Source of the DNA: Chitinophagaceae bacterium
Lineage (GTDB): Bacteria > Bacteroidota > Bacteroidia > Chitinophagales > Chitinophagaceae
Direction of reading: 5' to 3'
Assembly (NCBI GenBank): GCA_024707305.1
Contig: JANPZZ010000018.1
Coordinates: forward strand, 124,001-188,000
DNA length: 64,000 nt
Notes under the pieces: generated by a model
The model's input: only the letters and a program-made list of their open reading frames with translations
Database searches by the model: none
What the model was told of the DNA's origin: nothing
Made by a program: the position numbers and the translations under genes
Shown here: in pieces, positions 3,560 to 63,700 of the stretch
Layout: every line of letters begins with the position of its first letter
How positions within the stretch are numbered: position 1 is the first letter of the stretch

Positions 3560-3577
3560 CGCCAGTTCTTTAGATAA

Positions 3578-3685
3578 CTTATCAAGAAAGGCTGAGGGTT
3601 ATGGCCCTTTGAAGCCTTGGCAACCTCTCCTGAGTGATCAGGAAAAGGTGCCAAATCCATCCCGGTAATTATCGGGGCAGATAAG
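3578..3685 (+). ncRNA. SAM-I (S-box) riboswitch aptamer
   Basis: CTTATCAAGAAAGGCTGAGGG...GGCCCTTTGAAGCCTTGGCAACC...AAAAGGTGCCAAATCC...GATAAG: S-box core with P1 CTTATC/GATAAG, upstream of methionine biosynthesis genes. Confidence 0.93.
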
Positions 3686-3724
3686 TCAGATTTCAAGCTT
3701 TAAACATTGAACACAATCATATTT

Positions 3725-20643: not shown

Positions 20644-20882
20644 GCTATTAACTCTTTAAAAGCCTTTCCGCCTTTCCATGATTTAATTTGTTTTTCTCGC
20701 GCCAGCGCTTCGGATTTAGAAATATATTCCTCGTAATGAACCAGACGAAACGGAATTCTATGTCCAGTAGATCGCTGAAGTCCAGAATTATGAAACTGTA
20801 ATCGGGCCTTTACATCGGTCGAATAACCGATATAATATTTCTCATCTTTTAAACTTTGCAGCACATAAACGTAATGAGACAT
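20634..20882 (-). CDS. GIY-YIG nuclease family protein (copy 2)
   Basis: 82 aa, near-identical to copies at 20987-21235 and 13405-13653. Confidence 0.88.
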   Translation of the reverse strand: MSHYVYVLQSLKDEKYYIGYSTDVKARLQFHNSGLQRSTGHRIPFRLVHYEEYISKSEALAREKQIKSWKGGKAFKELIAGK

Positions 20883-20921
20883 AAAAAAAGAGGCCCTAAT
20901 TTCTTAGAGCCTCCTTGTTAG

Positions 20922-20996
20922 TCGGGAAGACAGGATTCGAACCTGCGACCCCCTGGTCCCAAACCAGGTGCCCCGCCATGGCGGGGCTACTTCCCA
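20922..20996 (-). pseudogene. tRNA-Pro-like chimera, copy 1 (palindromic D-arm; T-arm intact)
   Basis: GGGAAGTAGCCCCGCCATGGCGGGGCACCTGGTTTGGGACCAGGGGGTCGCAGGTTCGAATCCTGTCTTCCCGA on the minus strand. Confidence 0.8.
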
Positions 20997-21235
20997 GCTA
21001 TTAACTCTTTAAAAGCCTTTCCGCCTTTCCATGATTTAATTTGTTTTTCTCGCGCCAGCGCTTCGGATTTAGAAATATATTCCTCGTAATGAACCAGACG
21101 AAACGGAATTCTATGTCCAGTAGATCGCTGAAGTCCAGAATTATGAAACTCTAATCGGGCCTTTACATCGGTCGAATAACCGATATAATATTTCTCATCT
21201 TTTAAACTTTGCAGCACATAAACGTAATGAGACAT
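20987..21235 (-). CDS. GIY-YIG nuclease family protein (copy 1)
   Basis: 82 aa GIY-YIG protein; tandem with copy 2 at a 353-bp period. Confidence 0.88.
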   Translation of the reverse strand: MSHYVYVLQSLKDEKYYIGYSTDVKARLEFHNSGLQRSTGHRIPFRLVHYEEYISKSEALAREKQIKSWKGGKAFKELIAGK

Positions 21236-21240
21236 AAAAA

Positions 21241-21270
21241 AAGAGGCCCTAATTTCTTAGAGCCTCCTTG
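21241..21270 (-). terminator. tRNA-Pro terminator directly upstream of the GIY-YIG start codon
   Basis: Minus-strand GAGGCTCTAAGAAATTAGGGCCTCTTTTTTT followed at once by ATGTCTCATTACGTT. Confidence 0.7.
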
Positions 21271-21274
21271 TTAG

Positions 21275-21348
21275 TCGGGAAGACAGGATTCGAACCTGCG
21301 ACCCCCTGGTCCCAAACCAGGTGCGCTACCGGCCTGCGCTACTTCCCG
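21275..21348 (-). tRNA. tRNA-Pro (anticodon TGG), apparently intact
   Basis: Minus-strand CGGGAAGTAGCGCAGGCCGGTAGCGCACCTGGTTTGGGACCAGGGGGTCGCAGGTTCGAATCCTGTCTTCCCGA: 7-bp acceptor, GGTTCGAATCC T-arm, TTTGGGA anticodon loop. Confidence 0.95.
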
Positions 21349-27732: not shown

Positions 27733-28344
27733 TTGAATATTAATAAAGAGGCTCTTGATGATAAACGTATGTTCCTGCAGGTCGCTGCGGGAAACGAAGC
27801 CGCTTTCAGGCAACTTTTCCACAAGTACACCCCACTATTACATCCTGGTGTTTTGCAAATGGTAAAGCATCGCGAGGTAGCGCGCGAAATTGTACAGGAG
27901 GTTTTTCTCAAACTTTGGTTGCAAAAAGAGCAGGTCGGCAACATGGATCGACCGGAGGCCTGGATGTTCCGCGTGGCGTCGAATCTCGCGATCAGTCATT
28001 TGCGCAAGACATCTTCCCATATCCGATGGCTTGAAACGGTTCGGGCCAACGATGTTGAACCCGGTACCGCAGTGGAGCAGCTTTCGATGAAAGAATTACA
28101 GCAACTGGTTTATGAGGCGGTGGAAGCGTTACCGGATAAACGACAAAAGATTTTCCGACTCAGTCGTGAACAAGGCATGACTATTGACCAGATCGCATTG
28201 CATTTAAACCTTTCCCGCTCCACTGTAAAAAACCAAATCAGCATTGCGCTGAAGTTTGTTCAATCCTATATCTATAAAGGCACTTCGCTTTATTTCCCCC
28301 TTTTCCTCTTGAATTCACTTTTTTTTAATCCCGGACGGTACTGA
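27733..28344 (+). CDS. RNA polymerase ECF sigma factor (locus 1)
   Basis: FHKYTPLLHPGVLQMVKHREVAREIVQEVFLKLWLQ; C-terminal HTH LSRSTVKNQISIALKFVQSYI. Confidence 0.88.
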   Translation: MNINKEALDDKRMFLQVAAGNEAAFRQLFHKYTPLLHPGVLQMVKHREVAREIVQEVFLKLWLQKEQVGNMDRPEAWMFRVASNLAISHLRKTSSHIRWLETVRANDVEPGTAVEQLSMKELQQLVYEAVEALPDKRQKIFRLSREQGMTIDQIALHLNLSRSTVKNQISIALKFVQSYIYKGTSLYFPLFLLNSLFFNPGRY

Positions 28345-28385: not shown

Positions 28386-29599
28386 ATGACTGAAAAAAAG
28401 AACAAATCCGGCTGTTGCTGGAAAAATATTTTTTGGAGACTGCCTCTGACGAGGAGTTGCGGGAGCTGTTTGCGCTGATAGAGTCCTATCCAAAAGAGGA
28501 AGATCTGGAAGATCTTTTCATTCCTGTTTTTGAACGCATCAAAAAAGATGTGGATTACAAACCGGAAGAATGGGAATCTGTTGTTGCAGATATACTCAAT
28601 ACCAGGAATGTAGTTCCCATCACTGCACGTCGTTCTGTATGGCAGCGCTGGTGGGTAGCAGCATCTGTGGCCGCAATTGCACTTTCACTTTTCCTCTGGC
28701 TTCCCTGGAAGAATGACCCGGCACCCAAACCCGGGTTGGTGATGGTGCCAGCAGAAATTCCACCCGCAAGTGATGGCGCGATGTTGACACTTGCAGATGG
28801 CTCGCAGATTTTACTCGACACAGTAAAAGATGGACCACTGGTATTACCCGGTGGCGTGGTTGCGAAGGTATCGGGAGGAAAAATTGTTTATGAAGGCAAT
28901 AGTGAAACAACTACCTACAATACCGTCACAACACCGAATGGCCGCCAGTTCAGGGTTGTATTACCCGACGCTTCAGTGGTGTGGATGAATACTTCAAGTT
29001 CTTTAAGATACCCCACACGTTTCACTGAATCAGAACGCAGGGTGGAACTATGGGGCGAAGCTTATTTCGAAGTGAGTGAAGATGCCAAAAAGCCTTTCTA
29101 TGTATCTATCAACAATGAATCGGAAGTGGAAGTACTGGGAACAAAATTTAATGTAAACGCATACGACAACGAGCCGATGATTCAAACCACATTATTACAG
29201 GGAAAAGTGCGGGTGAATGCCAGAAGCATTGCAAACGGAAGCCGTCAGCTAATGTCGCAGGCAGTATTAACTCCCGGACAACAGGCACAAATAGAAAAGA
29301 AAAAAGTGAACAGTCGCGGTGAGCCGGTATTGGTAGTTGAAAGACATGCAAACCTGGAACAGGTGATGGCCTGGAGAAATGGCGTATTCCATTTCGACGG
29401 CATGTCATTAGCACAAGTGGCAAGACAGCTTGAGCGGTGGTACGATGTGGAAGTGCAGATACAAAAAGGCATGCAGGATATTCGTTTCGGCGGCAGTATA
29501 TCTAACCAGATTTCTTTACAGCAGTTGCTAAAAGAACTGGAGTTTATGGGTATACGCGGCAGGCTCGAGGGAGAAAGGACCCTGATTGTTTCGCCATAA
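28386..29599 (+). CDS. FecR-family anti-sigma factor (locus 1; homopolymer frameshift near 28393)
   Basis: TTYNTVTTPNGRQFRVVLPDASVVWMNTSSSLRYPTRFTESERRVELWGEAYFEVSED; N-terminus MTEKKEQIRLLLEKYFLET recovered by one base. Confidence 0.9.
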
Positions 29600-29639
29600 T
29601 ACCTTATCAAAATCGTTCGAATTAATGAACCGCTTTCGG

Positions 29640-29672
29640 AAAAAAAGCCAGTGATGGTGAAGCATCACTGGC
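29640..29672 (-). terminator. Minus-strand intrinsic terminator in the fecR-susC gap (locus 1)
   Basis: GCCAGTGATG-gtgaag-CATCACTGGC; minus strand ends in TTTTTTT. Confidence 0.75.
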
Positions 29673-29731
29673 GGAAGTCCGGGAGATGGAAAACCTGTAC
29701 GTATAATATAGACTTTACTCATCAACCAAAC
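29640..29731 (-). ncRNA. Predicted susC-leader antisense RNA (locus 1)
   Basis: Minus TAAATTTG promoter motif at 29736-29743 overlapping susC ATG; terminator at 29640-29672; nothing else explains either. Confidence 0.45.
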
Positions 29732-29742
29732 ACAGCAAATTT

Positions 29743-32700
29743 ATGCTAAAAACTGCTCACTGCGTGTGGTGGCCACCCGGACGTGGTTCCCGCCGAACCA
29801 AAACAATTGTACTGATGAAAGTATTGGGAATCTTTTTATGTCTTGCCAGTATGACGATCTGCGCGTCGGGCAACTCCCAGGTTGTTTCTATGTCGGGGAA
29901 AAACCTGCCTTTACGAACGGTTTTTGATTCTGTAAAACACAAAACCGGCTATTCTGTTTTTTTCATTCAAAATGAAATTGAAAATGCATCCACAGTAGAT
30001 GTGAATGTAAAGAATATGCCGCTGACAGATTTTATGGAACTTGTTCTCCGGAATCAGCCACTAAGTTTCCGGATTTCGGCGCAGACCATTTTCATTTCTG
30101 CTAAACGCTTTTCTGCAACCACAACAGACGCTTCGGGAATGATGGAAAAAGCCGAAGAAATCAGAAAAGATACACTCAAAATACGGGGTGTTGTAATCAA
30201 TGAAAAAGGAGAAAGCCTCACAGGGGCATCCGTTTCAGTAAAAGGTACACGTAATGTAGTTGTTGCCGGTGACGACGGCCGCTTCAACCTCGACAATGTA
30301 CAAAAGAATGCAACGCTTGTAATCACATTCGTTGGATACCAGACACAGGAAGTCGCAATCAGGGATCGTGAATTCTTCGAGGTGAAAATGATTGCCACCA
30401 CTTTCGGTCTGTCTGATGTCGTAATCAGCAATGGTATGTTTACCCGCAAAGCGCGATCAATATACAGGTGCTGTAAGCAGCTTTTCCGGAGAAGAATTGC
30501 GCACCATCGGTGTACAAAACATCGCCAAAAGCCTGAGTGTCCTCGAGCCTTCTATGCGTATGTTCGATAACATCGAAATGGGATCAGATCCCAATCGTCT
30601 TTCCCGAAATCGCATTGCGCGGCTCTTCAGGCATTCCCGACCTGCAGGCTTCTTATCAGAACGCACCAAATCTTCCATTGTTCATCCTTGATGGATTTGA
30701 AACCACAGTTCAACGCATCTATGATCTCAATATGGAACTGGTAGAACGCGTAACAGTGTTGAAAGACGCATCTGCAAAAGCAATCTATGGTTCTAAAGCA
30801 GGTAACGGCGTAATTGTTGTTGAAACAAAACGTCCTTCTGCCGGCGCACTTCGTGTAGGATACAACGGTGGTATTACCATTTCAGCACCTGACCTTACCA
30901 GTTATAACCTTGCCAATGCACAGGAAAAACTGGATGCGGAAGTGCTGGCAGGCGTATACCGCAACAACGTTCCAAACCGTCAGTTTCCATTAATCGCTAC
31001 TTACGGCCAGATACAAAAGGATATCGCTAGTGGTGTGAATACAGACTGGCTGGCGCAACCCGTACAAAACGGAATTGGCCAGCGCCACAACGTTACATTA
31101 GATGGTGGCGGTGAAGGCATGCGCTATTTCGTTTCTCTCAACTACAACAAGATTACCGGTACCATGAAAGGTTCTGACAGAACAACTGCTACTGGTGTTG
31201 TAAACCTTGAGTACCGAAAAAATAAGTTTGCATTCCGCAACAACCTCAGCATCGACAACAACAAAGGCATCAACAGTCCTTATGGTTCTTTTACACAGTA
31301 TGCGAGAATGAATCCTTACTGGAGAATTCATGACGACAATGGCGAGTTGATTAAATCTTATCACAGCGGAAATACACCAAACCCGTTGTATAATCTTCAA
31401 TTTAAAACGAAAGATTTTTCAACTTATACTACCATCACCGAAAACTTCTATGCTGAGTGGACACCCGTAAAGTCGCTGCGTTTTACAGCACGCACGGGCT
31501 TAAGTCTTTCGAATAGTGGAACTGAATTTTTCATTCCCGCGCAGCATACGCGTTATGCCACCATTCTTCCCACATCTGACCAATACCTGAAGAGAGGTGA
31601 ATACACCATCACGAATGGTAAATCGAATATGTTCAGTACCGATCTCGGTGCCTCCTACTCTGTTGAGAAAAACGGGCACCAGGTTTTCACCAACCTGATC
31701 TATAGTATTCAGCAAACATCCAATGCCATGACAGGAATGAGTATGGTGGGATTCCCCAACGATCGCATGGATGATATTTCAATGGGACTGGAATACAAAG
31801 AAGGTACAACAGCACAGGGAAGTGAACAAACGTCTCGCACCGTAGGTGTTACGTCTGCCATTAACTATTCTTACCTGAATAAATATCTCGCCGACTTCTC
31901 TTACCGTGCAAGCGGAAGCTCACAATTTGGTGCAGACAACCGCTGGGGTTCTTTCTGGTCGGCTGGTGCAGGCTGGAATGTACACAATGAAGCATTCGCC
32001 AAAGGAATAAAAAACCTGAATCAATTACGCATCAGGGGTAGCATCGGTTCTACCGGTACACAAAACTTTAGCGCTTACCAGGCAATTGCCACTTACAACT
32101 ACATCACTTCACAAGCCTATGACGGCGAACTGGGTAACGTGTTGATGGCACTGCACAATCCCAATTTAAAATGGCAGGAAATTTTTGATAAAAATATCGG
32201 TGCAGATATCACTTTATTCAATAAGCTGACCATCCGTTTCGATCTCTATTCAAAAATCACAAAGTCACTGTTGTCTGATCAAACAACAGCACCATCAACC
32301 GGTTTCAATGTTTACAGGGAAAACATTGGCGAAACGGTGAACAAAGGCTATGAAGTTGGATTGTCGTACAAAGTAATCAGCAACTCCGCGCGTCGTACTT
32401 ATGTAACTGTTTTTGCCAATGCTGCGCATAACGAAAACAGGATCCGCAAGGTTTCAGATGCCCTTAAGTCGCTAAACGAAGCTCAGGATTCCCGTCTTTT
32501 AGGTAACAGCGCAGACGCGTCAAGACCTGTAACACGATTCCAGGAAGGTCAGTCACTTACTTCCATCTGGGCCGTTACATCACTTGGCATTGACCCCATT
32601 ACTGGTAGTGAGATATTCCTGACAAGAGATGGCAACATCACCCATATCTGGAATGTGGACGACCAGGTAGTTGCGGGTGATATGCTTCCATCACTCAACG

Positions 32701-33140
32701 GAACATTTGGTGTGAATGCAAGAATTAAAGGCTGGAGTTTTAACATAGCCATGATGTTCCAGTTTGGAGCGCAGATTTACAACACAACCCTGGTGCAGAA
32801 AGTTGAAAATGCGAGCATGGATTTCAACGTCGATCGTCGCTTCCTGTTGGAACGTTGGAATACTCCGGGCCAGTACAGTCTCTTCAAAAACATCGCTGAC
32901 AGAACTGTTACAAAACCTACTACCCGTTTCGTTCAGGATAATGATGAAATGATTCTTTCTTCTATCACTGCTGCATACGATTTCGGCGCAAGTAATATGA
33001 TGAAACGAATTGGTTTGAAAAATTTCCGTGTCAATATGACGCTCAATGATCTTGTTCGTGTTGGAAAGATTCGCGCAGAGCGCGGAACCTTATATCCATT
33101 CGCGCGTAACTTCTTAATGGGTCTTCAGTTTAACTTTTAA
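29743..33140 (+). CDS. SusC/RagA TonB-linked outer-membrane receptor with STN domain (locus 1; frameshifts near 30445 and 30605)
   Basis: STN region LPLRTVFDSVKHKTGYSVFF; IRGVVINEKGESLTGASVSVKGT; AKAIYGSKAGNGVIVVETKRP; C-terminal MGLQFNF. Confidence 0.92.
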
Positions 33141-33152
33141 TTGAAACGTAGT

Positions 33153-34563
33153 ATGAACAAAATACTGATAGCCGTCCTGCCGCTTTGCCTGCTGCTGGCA
33201 TCCTGCAAGAAGTGGCTGGACGTGAGTCCAAAAACACAGATTGAATCCTCTGTGAACTTTGCCGGTGAACAGGGATTTAAGGACGCACTTACGGGCGTAT
33301 ATCTTACGCTGAATGGTGCCGATTTATATGGGAAAGACATGACCTACGGTTTTGTGGATGCACTGGGTCAACAACACACGCAGATCACACAGGTAGCACC
33401 AGACTATTATTATGCCGGGCAATACATGTATACAGAAGAATCGGTTGTAAATAAGATCAATTCTGTTTGGTCGCGCATGTACTTTGCGGTAGCCAACCTG
33501 AATAACCTGTTGAAAGCGTTGGAGTCGAAAGATTCTACCAGCTTTAGTGACTATACTTACAATGTTGTAAAAGGTGAAGCACTGGGATTGAGAGCATTTC
33601 TCCATTTTGATTTGCTTCGTCTTTTTGCACCTTCTCCCGCATCGAAAGGAATGCAGGCAAAGGCGATCCCCTATCGTCTGAATTATTCTGCCATTCCTGA
33701 ACCACGCCGCAATGTTGGTGAAGTTTTGAACCTGGCATTAAAAGACATCAACGATGCGTTGCCACTGTTGAAATACAGCAGATCCACTGGTTGCCGGAAC
33801 AACAGTTCCAACAACCACAACAGGATATTTGCGTAACAGAACACTTCGTTTTAACTATTACGCGGTACTCGCATTAAAAGCAAGAGTTCACCTGTATGCC
33901 GGCAATCTGGATTCTGCACGTATTGCGGCGCAGGAAGTTATCAGCTCTGCTAAATTTCCAGCAACAGCATTGTCTGCAATCTCTGGCGGCAACAGAACTT
34001 TCTCTACTGAAGTAATCTTTAACCTGAATGTAAATGATATCGCCATTCTATATGCAGGATTCTTTAATACTTCAGTAAGGGCAACCAAGAGTGTGGACCA
34101 GTGGAACAGTTGGTTTGAAATTGCGGCCGGAGGTTCTGGCGATTATCGCTACCTGTATCAGACGGCACTGAACGGTGTATATCGCCTTCCAGTAAAACTC
34201 GATGGTGCGCTTAACACCAACGCTGCTGCAGCGAAAAAAGTTCCATTGATGCGCCTTACAGAAATGTATCTCATTGCAGCTGAAGCGCAATTGGGCACAG
34301 ACAACGCTGCTGCGTTAACATTGGTAAATACAGCTCGCAGAAGCCGCAACCTTACCGATCTGCCTGGCACACTTACTACACCGCAGATTCAACAGGAAAT
34401 CATCAAAGAATACCAGAAAGAATTGTTATGCGAAGGACAAATCTTTTATCTCTACAAGAGACTGAATTTGTCGGAGCTCCCTTACGACTTCAGGAGTATG
34501 AATGATGAGCAGTATGTGTTGCCGCTGCCTGATGATGAACTCACTTATGGACGTACTAAATGA
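33153..34563 (+). CDS. SusD/RagB-like lipoprotein (locus 1; frameshift near 33795)
   Basis: LLLASCKKWLDVSPKTQIESSV lipobox; EALGLRAFLHFDLLRLFAPS; MYLIAAEAQL. Confidence 0.9.
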
Positions 34564-43576: not shown

Positions 43577-43612
43577 AAAAAAAATGCCGGAAGCGTTGGA
43601 AGCACTTCCGGC
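43577..43612 (-). terminator. Minus-strand intrinsic terminator in the fecR-susC gap (locus 2)
   Basis: GCCGGAAG...CTTCCGGC; minus strand ends in A then TTTTTTTT. Confidence 0.72.
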
Positions 43613-43693
43613 AGGTAATTACTGTAACAATAATTACATCGGGTTAACCCAAAAAATACAATTCTAGCGAAACTGCTTATTAGATAACCCAAC
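43577..43693 (-). ncRNA. Predicted susC-leader antisense RNA (locus 2)
   Basis: Minus TACTTTTG motif at 43698-43705 overlapping susC ATG; terminator at 43577-43612. Confidence 0.4.
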
Positions 43694-43704
43694 ACTACAA
43701 AAGT

Positions 43705-46700
43705 ATGCAAACTAACGCTCTTTGTAAGGGGAATGATTATGCCATATTGAATGCGCCACTGCCCCCTGCCGGCAGACCAGTAATCAGGCTCCGCAACATC
43801 ACCAAAACTTTGCTTGTCATGAAACTCACTGTGCTCTTTCTCGTCATAAGCATGATGACCGCCAGCGCCCGGGGATTTTCACAGGGAATCAGTATTTCCG
43901 GGAAGAATATTCCAATTGAGAAGGCTTTTCAGACGATCGAAAGTCAAACCGATTTTACGTTTTACTATAAGATCGAAATACTACAGAATCTGAAAGTCTC
44001 CGTGAATCTTAAAAACGCGAGGCTCGAAACGGCGTTAGCTGAACTACTGAAGGATCAGCCACTCACCTACCATATAATCGATAAGAACATTGTAGTTAAC
44101 CTCAAGCAACGTGGTGCGCCCACCACTACGCCTGAGTTACCCAGCATTCCCTTTGCTATAATTATAACCGGTCGTGTAACATCCGAAGATAATACGCCGC
44201 TGCACGGCGTAAGCATCACCATAAAGGGTACGGATGCCGGAACAACGACAGACGAGTTCGGCACCTACCGCATTTCCGTTCCTTCCGAAGAATCGATCCT
44301 CGTGTATAGTATGGTCGGCTATACACAACAGGAAACCAAAGTGGGCAAACGGACTTCGATACCCATTAAACTGAAGGTCTCGGATAAAGAGATGGACCGG
44401 GTCGTTGTGATTGGTTATGGCGAATCAAGAAAAAGGAGATTTAACAGGTTCCGTTGCCCAGGCAGATGTAAAAGAAATGAGCAAAGCTCCGGTTCCAACT
44501 TTTGATCAGGCGCTGGCAGGTCGTATTGCCGGTGTGCAGGTTTCGGGAAATGACGGACAGCCCGGTGTGGCAAACACGCTCGTGATCAGGGGTAATAACT
44601 CTCTGACACAATCCAACGAGCCGCTCTACGTAATCGATGGATATCCCATCGAATCATTTGAAGATTTACCGATCAGCCCGTCCGATATTGAATCCATTCA
44701 GGTATTAAAGGATGCATCGGCAACATCTATCTACGGCTCGCGCGGTGCGAATGGCGTTGTTATTATCACCACAAAAAAAGGCGTCGCGGGGAAACCTGCT
44801 ATTTCGGTCAATACTTATTACGGCGTGCAGAAAGTTGCGAAGCGAATGGAAATGATGTCGCCCTACGAGTTTGTGAAATACGAAAATGAATTAAATCCGG
44901 CAACTACAGAGCGAATTTATTTGCAGGAACGTACACTGGAAGATTACAAAAATATTAAGGGTTATAATCTTCAAAACGAACTCTTCCAGTCGGCCCCCAT
45001 TTTCAATGCAGATATCGGTTTTCGCGGAGGTAATGACGGTACACAATATTCTGTTTTCACAAACATCTTAAGATCCGAAGGCGTGATCATTAATTCAGGG
45101 TATAATCGTCTTCAGGGAAAATTCAGTTTATCACAACAACTGAGTAAGAATATTAAAGGTTATATCAATACCACATTTACAAAGTCTAAAACTGACGGGT
45201 CTATTATTTCTGAAAATACGGGCGGTATTGCAAGCTTGAGTAAAATTTATAGCACATTGGGTTATAGACCCGTAAATGGCACCGAAGACGGGCCCGATTT
45301 AACGGAAGAATTTTATGACCCCGTGGTACTCGACGAAACACCAACAGACTACCGCGTGAATCCTGTGATTTCATCCCGCAATGAAATTAATAGCCGCATC
45401 CTGACCAGTACCGTAATCAATGGTTATTTCGACTTCAAATTGAGTAAAAACCTGTTGTTGAAAATCAGAGGTGGCCTCACCGAAAACTCTATGAACAGGG
45501 AATCGTTCTACAACTCAAAAACACAGAAAGGGAACCCCAATTATCCCACTTCACAGGGGACAACCGGCGCAGTTTCTGAGTTAAAAACGCAGAACTGGCT
45601 CAATGAAAACACATTGAGTTACACTACCAAAATCAATAAACATAAAATCAATGCACTTGCTGGTTTTACGATGCAGGAAAACCGGTTGTTTTATTCCGGA
45701 TTTGAAGCCAGCTTTATTGAAGACGAGTCGATGGGCATTGATGGAATTGATCTGAGTGCGACCCTGACTCCAACGGTTTACAAAAAAAGAATGGGGTCTT
45801 GCATCTTTCCTGGGTCGCGTAAATTATACGTATAAGGACAAATTTCTGCTGACGGCCAGTTTCCGTACGGATGGCTCTTCAAAATTCCGGGGAGAAAATC
45901 AATGGGGATATTTTCCATCAGGCGCTTTTGCGTGGGTAGTAACGAAAGAAAAATTCATGAAAAAGATCCGGCCGATTTCGGATCTGAAATTTCGCGTGAG
46001 TTATGGAACCACCGGCAACAACCGGGTAGATGAATATGCTACTTATTCAGGCGTAATTTTTCCGTTCACCGCACATTATTCATTTAATAATGGTACCCCC
46101 ATCAGAGGTGCTTCGCTCCGTACCAGCGCCGGTACAACCGATTTACGTTGGGAAACGACTACGCAATTCAATACCGGCATTGATCTGAATTTGCTGAACG
46201 ACCGCATCAACCTGGTTTTCGATTACTACAACAAAACAACAGACGATCTCTTATTAAACGCGAATCTTCCTTATACGAGTGGTTATCTCAATGCCTTTCA
46301 GAACATCGGAAGTGTAAGGAACCAGGGCCTTGAGTTTACATTGCAAACACAAAATATTAAACGTAAAAATTTCACCTGGAATACGTCGTTTAATATCAGC
46401 TTTAATAAAAATAAAGTTTTAAAACTGCAAGACGATCAGGCCTACAGGTTGTCAACTGTTCCATTCGCAGGCGGGTTTACCAACATCGCCCCATATATAG
46501 CCAAAGTAGGCGAACCCATGGGATTAATGTATGGCGCAGTTGCCGACGGACTGTACCAGTACAGCGATTTTGACCAATTGCCAAATGGAACTTATGTGCT
46601 GAAAGATGGTATACCCGACAACGGTCGTACGCGTAACACCATTCAGCCAGGCGATATGAAGTTCATCGACCAGAACAATGATGGAACGATCAACTCTGAA

Positions 46701-47226
46701 GATTACACAGTTATCGGTAACGGAAACCCACTCCATATCGGCGGCATGCTCAACAACTTTACATTTGGCGATTTCGATCTGAGCATTTTCCTGCAATGGT
46801 CATATGGAAATGATATCGTGAATGCCAACAAACTTTATTTTGAAGAGAATACATTACAGCTCTACAACTTCAACCTGTACGCTTCTGCGGCTAACCGATG
46901 GACTCCTGAAAATCAAAACACAAATATCCCGCGTGCCCGCCACGTATCACCAAGTATCTATCATTCTAACATAATTGAAGATGGATCTTACCTGCGTTTC
47001 AAAACAATCTCACTGGGATATCAACTTCCGGCAAAACTGATTCGCCGTGTAAATATGAAAGCTGCACGGGCTTACCTGTCGGTACAAAAACCTACTAACG
47101 ATTACCGGTTATTCAGGCGTCGATCCGGAAGTGTCAACCCGCAATTCTGCTTTGACTCCTGGATTTGATTGGTCGGCCTACCCGAGAGCAAGAACAGTTA
47201 CCGTTGGTTTAAATGTATCATTCTAA
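43705..47226 (+). CDS. SusC/RagA TonB-linked receptor with STN domain (locus 2; frameshifts near 44440, 45795 and 47092)
   Basis: ITGRVTSEDNTPLHGVSITIKGTDAGTTTDEFG; DASATSIYGSRGANGVVIITTKKG; ends TVTVGLNVSF. Confidence 0.92.
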
Positions 47227-60659: not shown

Positions 60660-60690
60660 AAAAAAACCGCCGGGATGGCAGTCCCGGCGG
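60660..60690 (-). terminator. Minus-strand intrinsic terminator in the fecR-susC gap (locus 3)
   Basis: CCGCCGGGA-tggcag-TCCCGGCGG; minus strand ends in TTTTTTT. Confidence 0.78.
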
Positions 60691-60759
60691 CACCCAAAGG
60701 GCTGTGTTGGTTCGATCATAAATGCTTTGTCGAGCTATCCTTTATTAACAAACCAAACA
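60660..60759 (-). ncRNA. Predicted susC-leader antisense RNA (locus 3)
   Basis: Minus TAAATTTG motif at 60764-60771 overlapping susC ATG with CTTG at -33 spacing; terminator at 60660-60690. Confidence 0.48.
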
Positions 60760-60770
60760 TTTTCAAATTT

Positions 60771-63700
60771 ATGCTAATTGCTGCTTCAAGCAAGCGGATG
60801 CAGGCTAAATGGCCGCACCGGTTGCGCGGGGCCGGCGAATCCCGATCGAGGATCCGGGTGCTGCCAGCGCTCTCATTCAAAACACTGCTTACGATGAAAC
60901 TAACGCTTCTTTTCCTGTTAGCAGGTCTGTTTAGCGCCCACGCAGAGGGCTTCAGCCAGACCATTACCTATTCGGGCAGAAACGTCGCCATCACGAAAGT
61001 TTTTGCTGCCATTGAGTCGCAAACGGGCTATTCCGTTTTTGCCAACAAAGAACTGTTGCGGGAAAGCAAACCCGTAACTCTTTCAGTGAAGGAAATGCCG
61101 CTGCAGGAATTCCTGCAACAGATGTTTCAAAACCAACCACTGGATTTTGAGGTGAACAACAAAACCATTTTTCTGAAAAAGAAAAAACAGGTAATACAAC
61201 GCCTCATGGCTCCCGAAGAGAAAAAAGAAACACCACCCCCTCCTACTATTACGGGTGTGGTTCTCGACTCCGCGGGCAACGCACTGCAGGGCGCATCCGT
61301 TGTTGTAAAAGGTACCAATGTATCTGTAACAACCAATGCGGAAGGGCGCTTTACCATCGAAGCTGAAACGAACCAGACACTGGTGATTTCTTATATCGGT
61401 TATAAAACTACCGAAGTCGCACTGGGAGGTCGCACTTCAGTAACGGTTCACATGGAAAAACAGGTCAACGAAATTGAACAGGTAGTCGTTACCGCCCTGG
61501 GTATTCCACGTAAAACAAAAGCACTTACTTATAACGTACAGGAAGTAAAAGGCGAAGAAGTGCTGCGCGTACGCGATGCGAACTTTGTAAACAGCCTTAC
61601 TGGTAAAGTTGCCGGTATCACCGTTAACAGTTCAGCTGCCGGTATCGGTGGTTCATCCCGCGTAGTAATGCGTGGTACAAAATCGCTGTTTGGAAATAAC
61701 AATGCACTGTATGTGGTGGATGGTATTCCCCTGCCAAACCTGCAGACCAATCAGGCCAGTGATATCTTCACCGGATCTGGCATGTCGGGCGATGGTATTT
61801 CAAATATCAATCCTGATGATATTGAAACAATGTCGGTACTTACAGGACCTGCTGCTGCAGCACTGTATGGTAGCCAGGCTGCGAATGGTGTAATCCTGAT
61901 CAACACTCGTAAAGGTGAAGCAGGTAAATTGAAACTGAGTGCTTCTAACAACACCAGCTTCTTCAGTCCTGCGATCCTTCCTGAGTTCCAGAATACATAC
62001 GGTTCTCCAACCGGTAGCTATTACAGCTGGGGCGATAAACTGGCTACACCATCATCATACGATCCTGCCGATTTCTTCCAGACAGGTGTAAACGTTACCA
62101 ATTCAATTACGCTGAGCACAGGCAATGAGAAAAAATCAGACTTATTTCTCTGCTGCAAGCGTACAGGCAAAAGGCATCATCACCAACAACGAACTGGATC
62201 GTCTGAACTTCTCCGTTCGTAACACAGCCAACCTGCTCGACAACAGGCTGACCTGGGATGTGAATGCGATGTACGTTAATACAGAAGAACAAAACATGTT
62301 CTCACAGGGTCAATACTTCAACCCGCTTATTCCCATCTATCTCTTCCCATTGAGCGATGATATTGAGCGCTACAAAGTTTTTGAACGCTTTGATCCTACA
62401 CGCAACTTTAATACACAGTTCTGGCCTTACGGTGATATGGGCTTCCAGATGCAAAACCCATACTGGATCATTCACCGCAACCTGTTCCAGGTGAAAAAAG
62501 ACCGCTTCGTAATTGGAACCGGTTTGAAATACAAGATCAACAGCTGGCTGGATGTTGCAGGTCGTGTACGTCTTGATCAAAACACAACATCTGGCGAGCG
62601 TAAATTCTTCGCATCTACTTCGGGGCTTTTTGCATCTGAAGCTGGTGCTTATTACAAGAATACCGCTATTACACGCCAGATGTATTCTGATGTACTGGCT
62701 ACCGCTACAAAAGATCTTAACAATGATCTTACGCTGAGTGCAACGGTGGGTGCATCTATTATGGATGTACAGTACAACATGGAAAACTATGGCGGTAACC
62801 TGCTGAGTGTTCCTAACCTGTTTGCTTATCAAAACGTAAACCAGACACAGGCAACCGTTCAACAGGAACGCTTCCGCGATCAGACGCAATCTGTTTTTGG
62901 AACTGCGCAATTGAGCTATCGCAATATGGTGTTTGTGGATGTTACGGGTCGTACCGACTGGTCATCCGCACTTGCTAACACAACAGCCAGCTCAATCGTA
63001 TATCCTTCAGTAGGTGCATCAGCCATCCTGACCGACCTGTTGAAGTTCCGTTCACCCATTTTGTCATTTGCAAAAATCCGCGGTACGTATAGTGAAGTAG
63101 GTAATGCTCCTTCCCGTTTTGTGAGTATTGCCACCTACCCCATCATTGGTGGATTCCCCACAACAACATCATATCGTCCGGCAACAAGCTTACGTCCTGA
63201 AGGAACACGTTCAGTGGAACTCGGTCTGAACCTGCGTTTCCTGCGTAATAAAATCAACCTGGATGTAACGGTTTATCGTTCCAACACCTTCAACCAGCTC
63301 TTCAACCCCACCCTGGCACCCAGTACAGGCTTTAGCAGCTTCTACATTAATGCCGGTGAAGTGGTTAACAAGGGTATTGAGGTTTCACTCGGTGGAAGCA
63401 TGAAGCTCGGTGCCGTTGACTGGAGTTCCAACGTAACGCTTGGATTGAACAGAAACCGTATCAACAAGTTGCTGGCTAACTACAAAGACGAGCTGACTGC
63501 TGAACCCATCAGCGTTGATAGCCTGAGCATGGGTGGAACAGGCAGCTACATGATGGCCCTGGTTAAAGGCGGCAGCATGGGTGATATTTATGTGAATTCA
63601 CTTGCAGTAGATGAGCATGGTTTCATTAAAGTGGGACTGGTTTCCCAAACGGTAACTGCAAACTCGAATCATTATATCAAAGCTGGTAATGCAAACCCAC

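Follow-up and report, generated by a model that had tools for sequence, protein, structure and literature searches.

A predicted antisense RNA gene in the fecR-susC gap of a Chitinophagaceae bacterium, with a terminator and a start-codon promoter box that recur in its relatives

Does the short gap that separates an anti-sigma gene from susC hold an RNA gene of its own, read against the operon? The question arose from an initial annotation of the window (the whole stretch of 64,000 nucleotides analysed here, from a Chitinophagaceae bacterium), which placed a minus-strand intrinsic terminator with a 10-bp perfect stem and a T7 tract in the fecR-susC gap of locus 1, noted a minus-strand TAnnTTTG element with the A of the susC start codon as its last base, and predicted from the two a cis-antisense RNA of ~90 nt in a DonS-like arrangement. 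Both elements are confirmed at the positions given in Table 1. In our judgement the gap probably holds a dedicated antisense RNA gene of DonS-like anatomy, most likely one that represses susC, and the evidence for this reading comes largely from the other junctions at which the same elements are found.

Table 1. Coordinates of the genes and of the observed and predicted elements at the three fecR-susC junctions of the window
Feature	Position	Strand	Remarks
ECF sigma factor gene	27733..28344	+	upstream of fecR
fecR anti-sigma gene	28415..29599	+	FecR, FecR_C domains
Antisense terminator T7 tract, locus 1	29640..29646	-	A7 on the plus strand
Intrinsic terminator hairpin, locus 1	29647..29672	-	10 perfect pairs, 6-nt loop
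Predicted antisense RNA, locus 1	~29731..29640	-	~92 nt; start inferred from -7 box, end from terminator
Sigma-A type -7 box, locus 1	29736..29743	-	TAAATTTG (TAnnTTTG); overlaps susC start codon
susC, first part	29743..30570	+	STN, CarbopepD_reg_2; frameshift, then frame resumes 30537-33140
Antisense terminator hairpin, locus 2	43585..43613	-	11 pairs, then T tract
-7 box, locus 2	43698..43705	-	TACTTTTG; overlaps susC ATG at 43705
Antisense terminator hairpin, locus 3	60666..60691	-	then T tract
-7 box, locus 3	60764..60771	-	TAAATTTG; overlaps likely susC ATG at 60771

At locus 1 the minus strand reads GCCAGTGATG-CTTCAC-CATCACTGGC from 29672 to 29647, followed by TTTTTTT at 29646-29640, and the resulting hairpin, with a folding energy of -16.1 kcal/mol, ranks first in the list of terminator-like sites returned by a scan across 20 kb. 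A plus-strand terminator was sought in the same gap and none was found, and the Rfam 15 covariance models gave no match to positions 29600-29760. The -7 box is the complement of CAAATTTA, which occupies 29736-29743 and shares its last base, 29743, with the first base of the susC start codon. With the transcription start placed 5 nt past the box, following the geometry measured in Flavobacterium psychrophilum, where the -7 box lies at -12 to -5 (PMC9723704), the predicted RNA attains the length listed in Table 1. No TTG is present at the -33 position, and locus 1 is therefore among the weaker examples of the arrangement. Indeed, a lone TAnnTTTG in a gap of ~100 bp is weak evidence and locus 1 by itself makes a modest case; the case against chance is made by the recurrence of the unit across other fecR-susC junctions.

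The genes 3' of the gap are susC, susD, DUF4843 and PKD_2, and there is no carbohydrate enzyme among the locus 1 genes tested. The susC gene (29743-33140) lies in several reading frames, with a break at ~30450-30600, and susD at this locus (33141-34563) and susC at locus 2 (43705-47168) are each likewise broken into several frames, reflecting either sequencing errors or pseudogenes. Elsewhere in the window, a SAM riboswitch (RF00162) is found at 3576-3687, and the region 20755-21348 is a duplicated module: its two tRNA genes carry identical 30-nt terminators downstream, and the promoter-like sites next to one gene recur next to the other.

Both remaining fecR-susC junctions in the window share the locus 1 layout, with predicted RNAs of ~117 nt at locus 2 and ~101 nt at locus 3. 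For the third susC, the start of the longest ORF (60675) falls within the antisense terminator hairpin, and the likely true start is 60771. In the remainder of the genome, one junction has a hairpin with an exact box, one a hairpin with a one-mismatch box, one a hairpin without a box, and two are without a clear hairpin or box. The hairpin was also considered as a dispersed repeat, and a DNA search gave one 27-nt, 96% match in the genome as well as a weak match in one relative; loci 2 and 3 are without such a match, and the locus 1 hairpin is thus not a member of a repeat family. The match in the genome pairs 29645-29671 with G000:C21:101876-101902 (L003:1501-1527) at 26 of 27 bases and lies within the coding sequence of another susC, the mRNA of which the predicted locus 1 RNA would complement; a coincidence or a copied fragment are both possible.

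To extend the comparison, gaps were taken from related genomes via FecR matches, with sampling started from the FecR of the window, which yielded 146 fecR-susC gaps, mainly from the window's own family and with paralogues included. An energy-based scan, which admits longer loops and was adopted because hairpins with long loops in family f25 escaped a loop-limited scan, found a minus-strand terminator in 124 of the 146 gaps and a plus-strand terminator in 9, versus a minus-strand terminator in 38 of 260 control gaps, control genes and gaps being drawn from two of the same genomes only. The strict scan, applied to gaps of at least 60 nt, gave 97/142 on the minus strand and 5/142 on the plus strand (dinucleotide shuffles, 0.6%), and found no such terminator at the 11 susC genes without fecR directly before them. 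The placement of the hairpin is also constrained, in that its distance to the ATG has an interquartile range of 65-78 nt, that from fecR to the hairpin being 36-101, and the predicted RNA, computed across loci for transcription starting 13 nt ahead of the ATG, has a median length of 90 nt (5-95%: 72-115). The initial annotation, in implicitly treating the arrangement as a feature of one locus, was too narrow; the antisense unit is lineage-wide.

A terminator of this kind would suffice on its own to halt stray antisense transcription from susC before it reached fecR and the sigma factor gene, and the gap might then serve as an insulator only, without promoter or regulatory RNA, an explanation to which the lack of an exact -7 box at 100 of 166 susC starts lends some weight. 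We nevertheless consider it unlikely, as the terminator is missing at susC genes without fecR upstream, the distance between box and terminator is constrained, and the box occurs in a single register and together with the terminator. The sequence CAAAnnT, which is TAnnTTTG on the minus strand, stands right before the ATG at 66/166 susC starts after fecR versus 0/351 control starts from the two control genomes (Fisher 6e-38), start codons being inferred from ORF length, and terminator and box co-occur (50/97 versus 16/69, p = 0.0004), p-values that overstate certainty because the loci, often paralogues from few genomes, are not independent. At susC starts without fecR upstream, CAAAnnT is found once in 11. 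Exact minus-strand boxes within 60 nt of the ATG are in the start-codon register in 50 of 58 cases, and no exact plus-strand box occurs within the same distance.

Conservation at the susC starts is high at positions -5, -4 and -1; the 'nn' positions, -3 and -2, are poorly conserved. This is the pattern of a promoter box. Translation starts in Bacteroidetes lie in A-rich regions (PMC7366714), and CAAAnnT could on this ground be a translation-start context, with the hairpin, which folds on the plus strand too, serving the stability or processing of the sigma-fecR or susC mRNA. This sense-strand explanation appears distinctly improbable to us. The A positions reported for such starts, -3, -6 and -11 to -15 (PMC7366714), differ from the conserved -5, -4 and -1, and a translation signal thus explains the box poorly; moreover, CAAAnnT is absent from the control starts and from all 26 fecR-susC starts of family f42, and the asymmetry of the T runs (124:9) points to a minus-strand RNA. 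The same strand is indicated by the stems themselves: with symmetric scoring, the imperfect stem pairs would form G.U wobbles in the minus-strand RNA in 68 cases and in the plus-strand RNA in 13 (34:3 in the other families), an asymmetry that favours the antisense RNA as the folding strand.

The stems are also diverse, in that among 97 hairpins there are 78 distinct 8-nt stem arms, which vary between loci yet pair at 7.9 of 8 positions (3.9 on re-dealt arms), a comparison that is partly circular in that the scan selects pairing. Many of the loci are paralogues in few genomes, and it might be supposed that the motifs are chance features, inherited as decoration after recent duplication of a single locus. 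We give this explanation very little credence, and it is already contradicted by the occurrence of the antisense unit in several families and by stem arms that mostly vary while keeping their complementarity; in addition, the FecR matches are just ~35-48% identical to those of the window.

In its distribution, as assessed from energy-scan minus-strand terminators at -10 kcal/mol or better, the antisense unit is frequent in two additional families (f25, 23/26; f23, 5/5), in Pedobacter (Pedobacter sp. MC2016-24, 10/11) and in Parachryseolinea (Parachryseolinea silvisoli, 5/7), is present at half of the gaps of one other family (f35, 5/10, with a TAnnTTTA-like box), and is nearly absent from f42 (3/20, with no exact box), a family that offers a natural comparison. 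The f42 fecR-susC gaps (L295, L298, L299 and L307) without the antisense unit hold GGAAGCGCTTTT or a close variant instead, which is possibly an operator. The closer orthologues of the locus 1 SusC, in Prevotella-type genomes, are mostly without fecR directly upstream and without the antisense unit, and the Parachryseolinea orthologue has a hairpin and a TAnnTTTA-type box. One Pedobacter genome contains 118 FecR_C matches, of which a few are receptor STN regions.

Taken as a promoter, the proposed box is the same canonical TAnnTTTG -7 box as that of Bacteroidota sigma-A promoters (PMC7366714, PMC9723704) and, unlike these, is set within the opposing gene's start codon, with a -33 box that is weak or missing. 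TTG is enriched at -33 with a 19-nt spacer (11 of 50 loci with the box), an enrichment that is confounded by conserved codons and was set aside as promoter support. When the stretch from hairpin to ATG was searched for a sense (ECF) promoter motif common to the loci, the enriched words AGACTG and GCTTAT emerged and no clear two-block promoter; the lack of a common motif would be expected were each sigma factor to recognise a different sequence.

The antisense reading of the gap suggests how the unit may operate. A housekeeping sigma-A promoter, its -7 box within the susC start codon, would fire away from susC and give rise to an RNA of ~90 nt that would stop at the intrinsic terminator before fecR. 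Such an RNA would be complementary to the susC mRNA leader ahead of the start codon, and the polymerase making it would cross the region in which the ECF-dependent susC promoter must lie, for which reasons susC is probably held off when no substrate is at the receptor, by leader pairing, by collision with sense transcription, or by both. Once FecR frees the ECF sigma factor, sense transcription could overrun the antisense promoter and lift the block, making the switch sharper. Repression of susC is the most likely outcome, the sign of the effect not being assured because the 32 PUL-associated antisense RNAs annotated in B. thetaiotaomicron include positive as well as negative correlations with their PUL (PMC10994844).

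A broader reading, which we regard as doubtful, makes the antisense RNA a regular third component of the sigma/FecR/SusC switch across much of the phylum. In this reading each RNA would, beyond its own susC, pair in trans with further susC leaders, giving rise to a nutrient hierarchy. Trans pairing is proposed because the susC leaders of one genome (positions -40 to -8, compared among paralogues) share blocks of at least 9 bases in 10-19% of pairs in five genomes versus ~1% when shuffled; if it occurs, dozens of receptors would mutually restrain one another and set that hierarchy. If the units are transcribed, antisense control would be built into most ECF/FecR/SusC modules of other Bacteroidota too, with RNA as a further level of control in a system commonly depicted as protein signalling alone, and the promoter-on-start-codon layout would be a simple rule predicting hundreds of such RNAs that can be tested together.

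Among the papers searched there was no report of such antisense RNAs in Chitinophaga, and the nearest known systems have been described for the gut genus Bacteroides. The FopS sRNAs are paralogous, multicopy RNAs of 65-70 nt that act in trans on several susC genes (PMC11697453); they resemble the RNAs predicted here in being short and in repressing susC through pairing near the start codon, as our RNAs would, and differ in that the unit described here is cis-encoded at each susC. The DonS family comprises PUL-associated cis-antisense RNAs of Bacteroides fragilis, with DonS-like members in B. thetaiotaomicron (PMC7366714, PMC10994844, PMC11697453). The DonS context is a host (mucosal) glycan PUL, host-derived glycan PULs being typically under the control of ECF sigma/anti-sigma pairs (PMC11697453); locus 1 has the SusC, SusD, DUF4843 and PKD_2 gene set. 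The unit analysed here belongs to another lineage and is predicted from DNA, and its resemblance to DonS is one of anatomy. That anatomy agrees as follows: the predicted RNA lies opposite a susC homologue and runs divergently from it, with a promoter box that ends on the susC ATG; an ECF sigma/anti-sigma pair lies directly upstream; and the predicted length at locus 1, like the median across loci, falls within the 78-128 nt of the DonS family (PMC7366714). The DonS-like arrangement first proposed for locus 1 is thus supported by the co-conservation of the -7 box and a terminator set at a constant spacing from it, by the strand-specific G.U wobble in the stems, by the lack of the terminator at the susC genes without fecR before them, and by predicted RNA lengths inside the DonS range.
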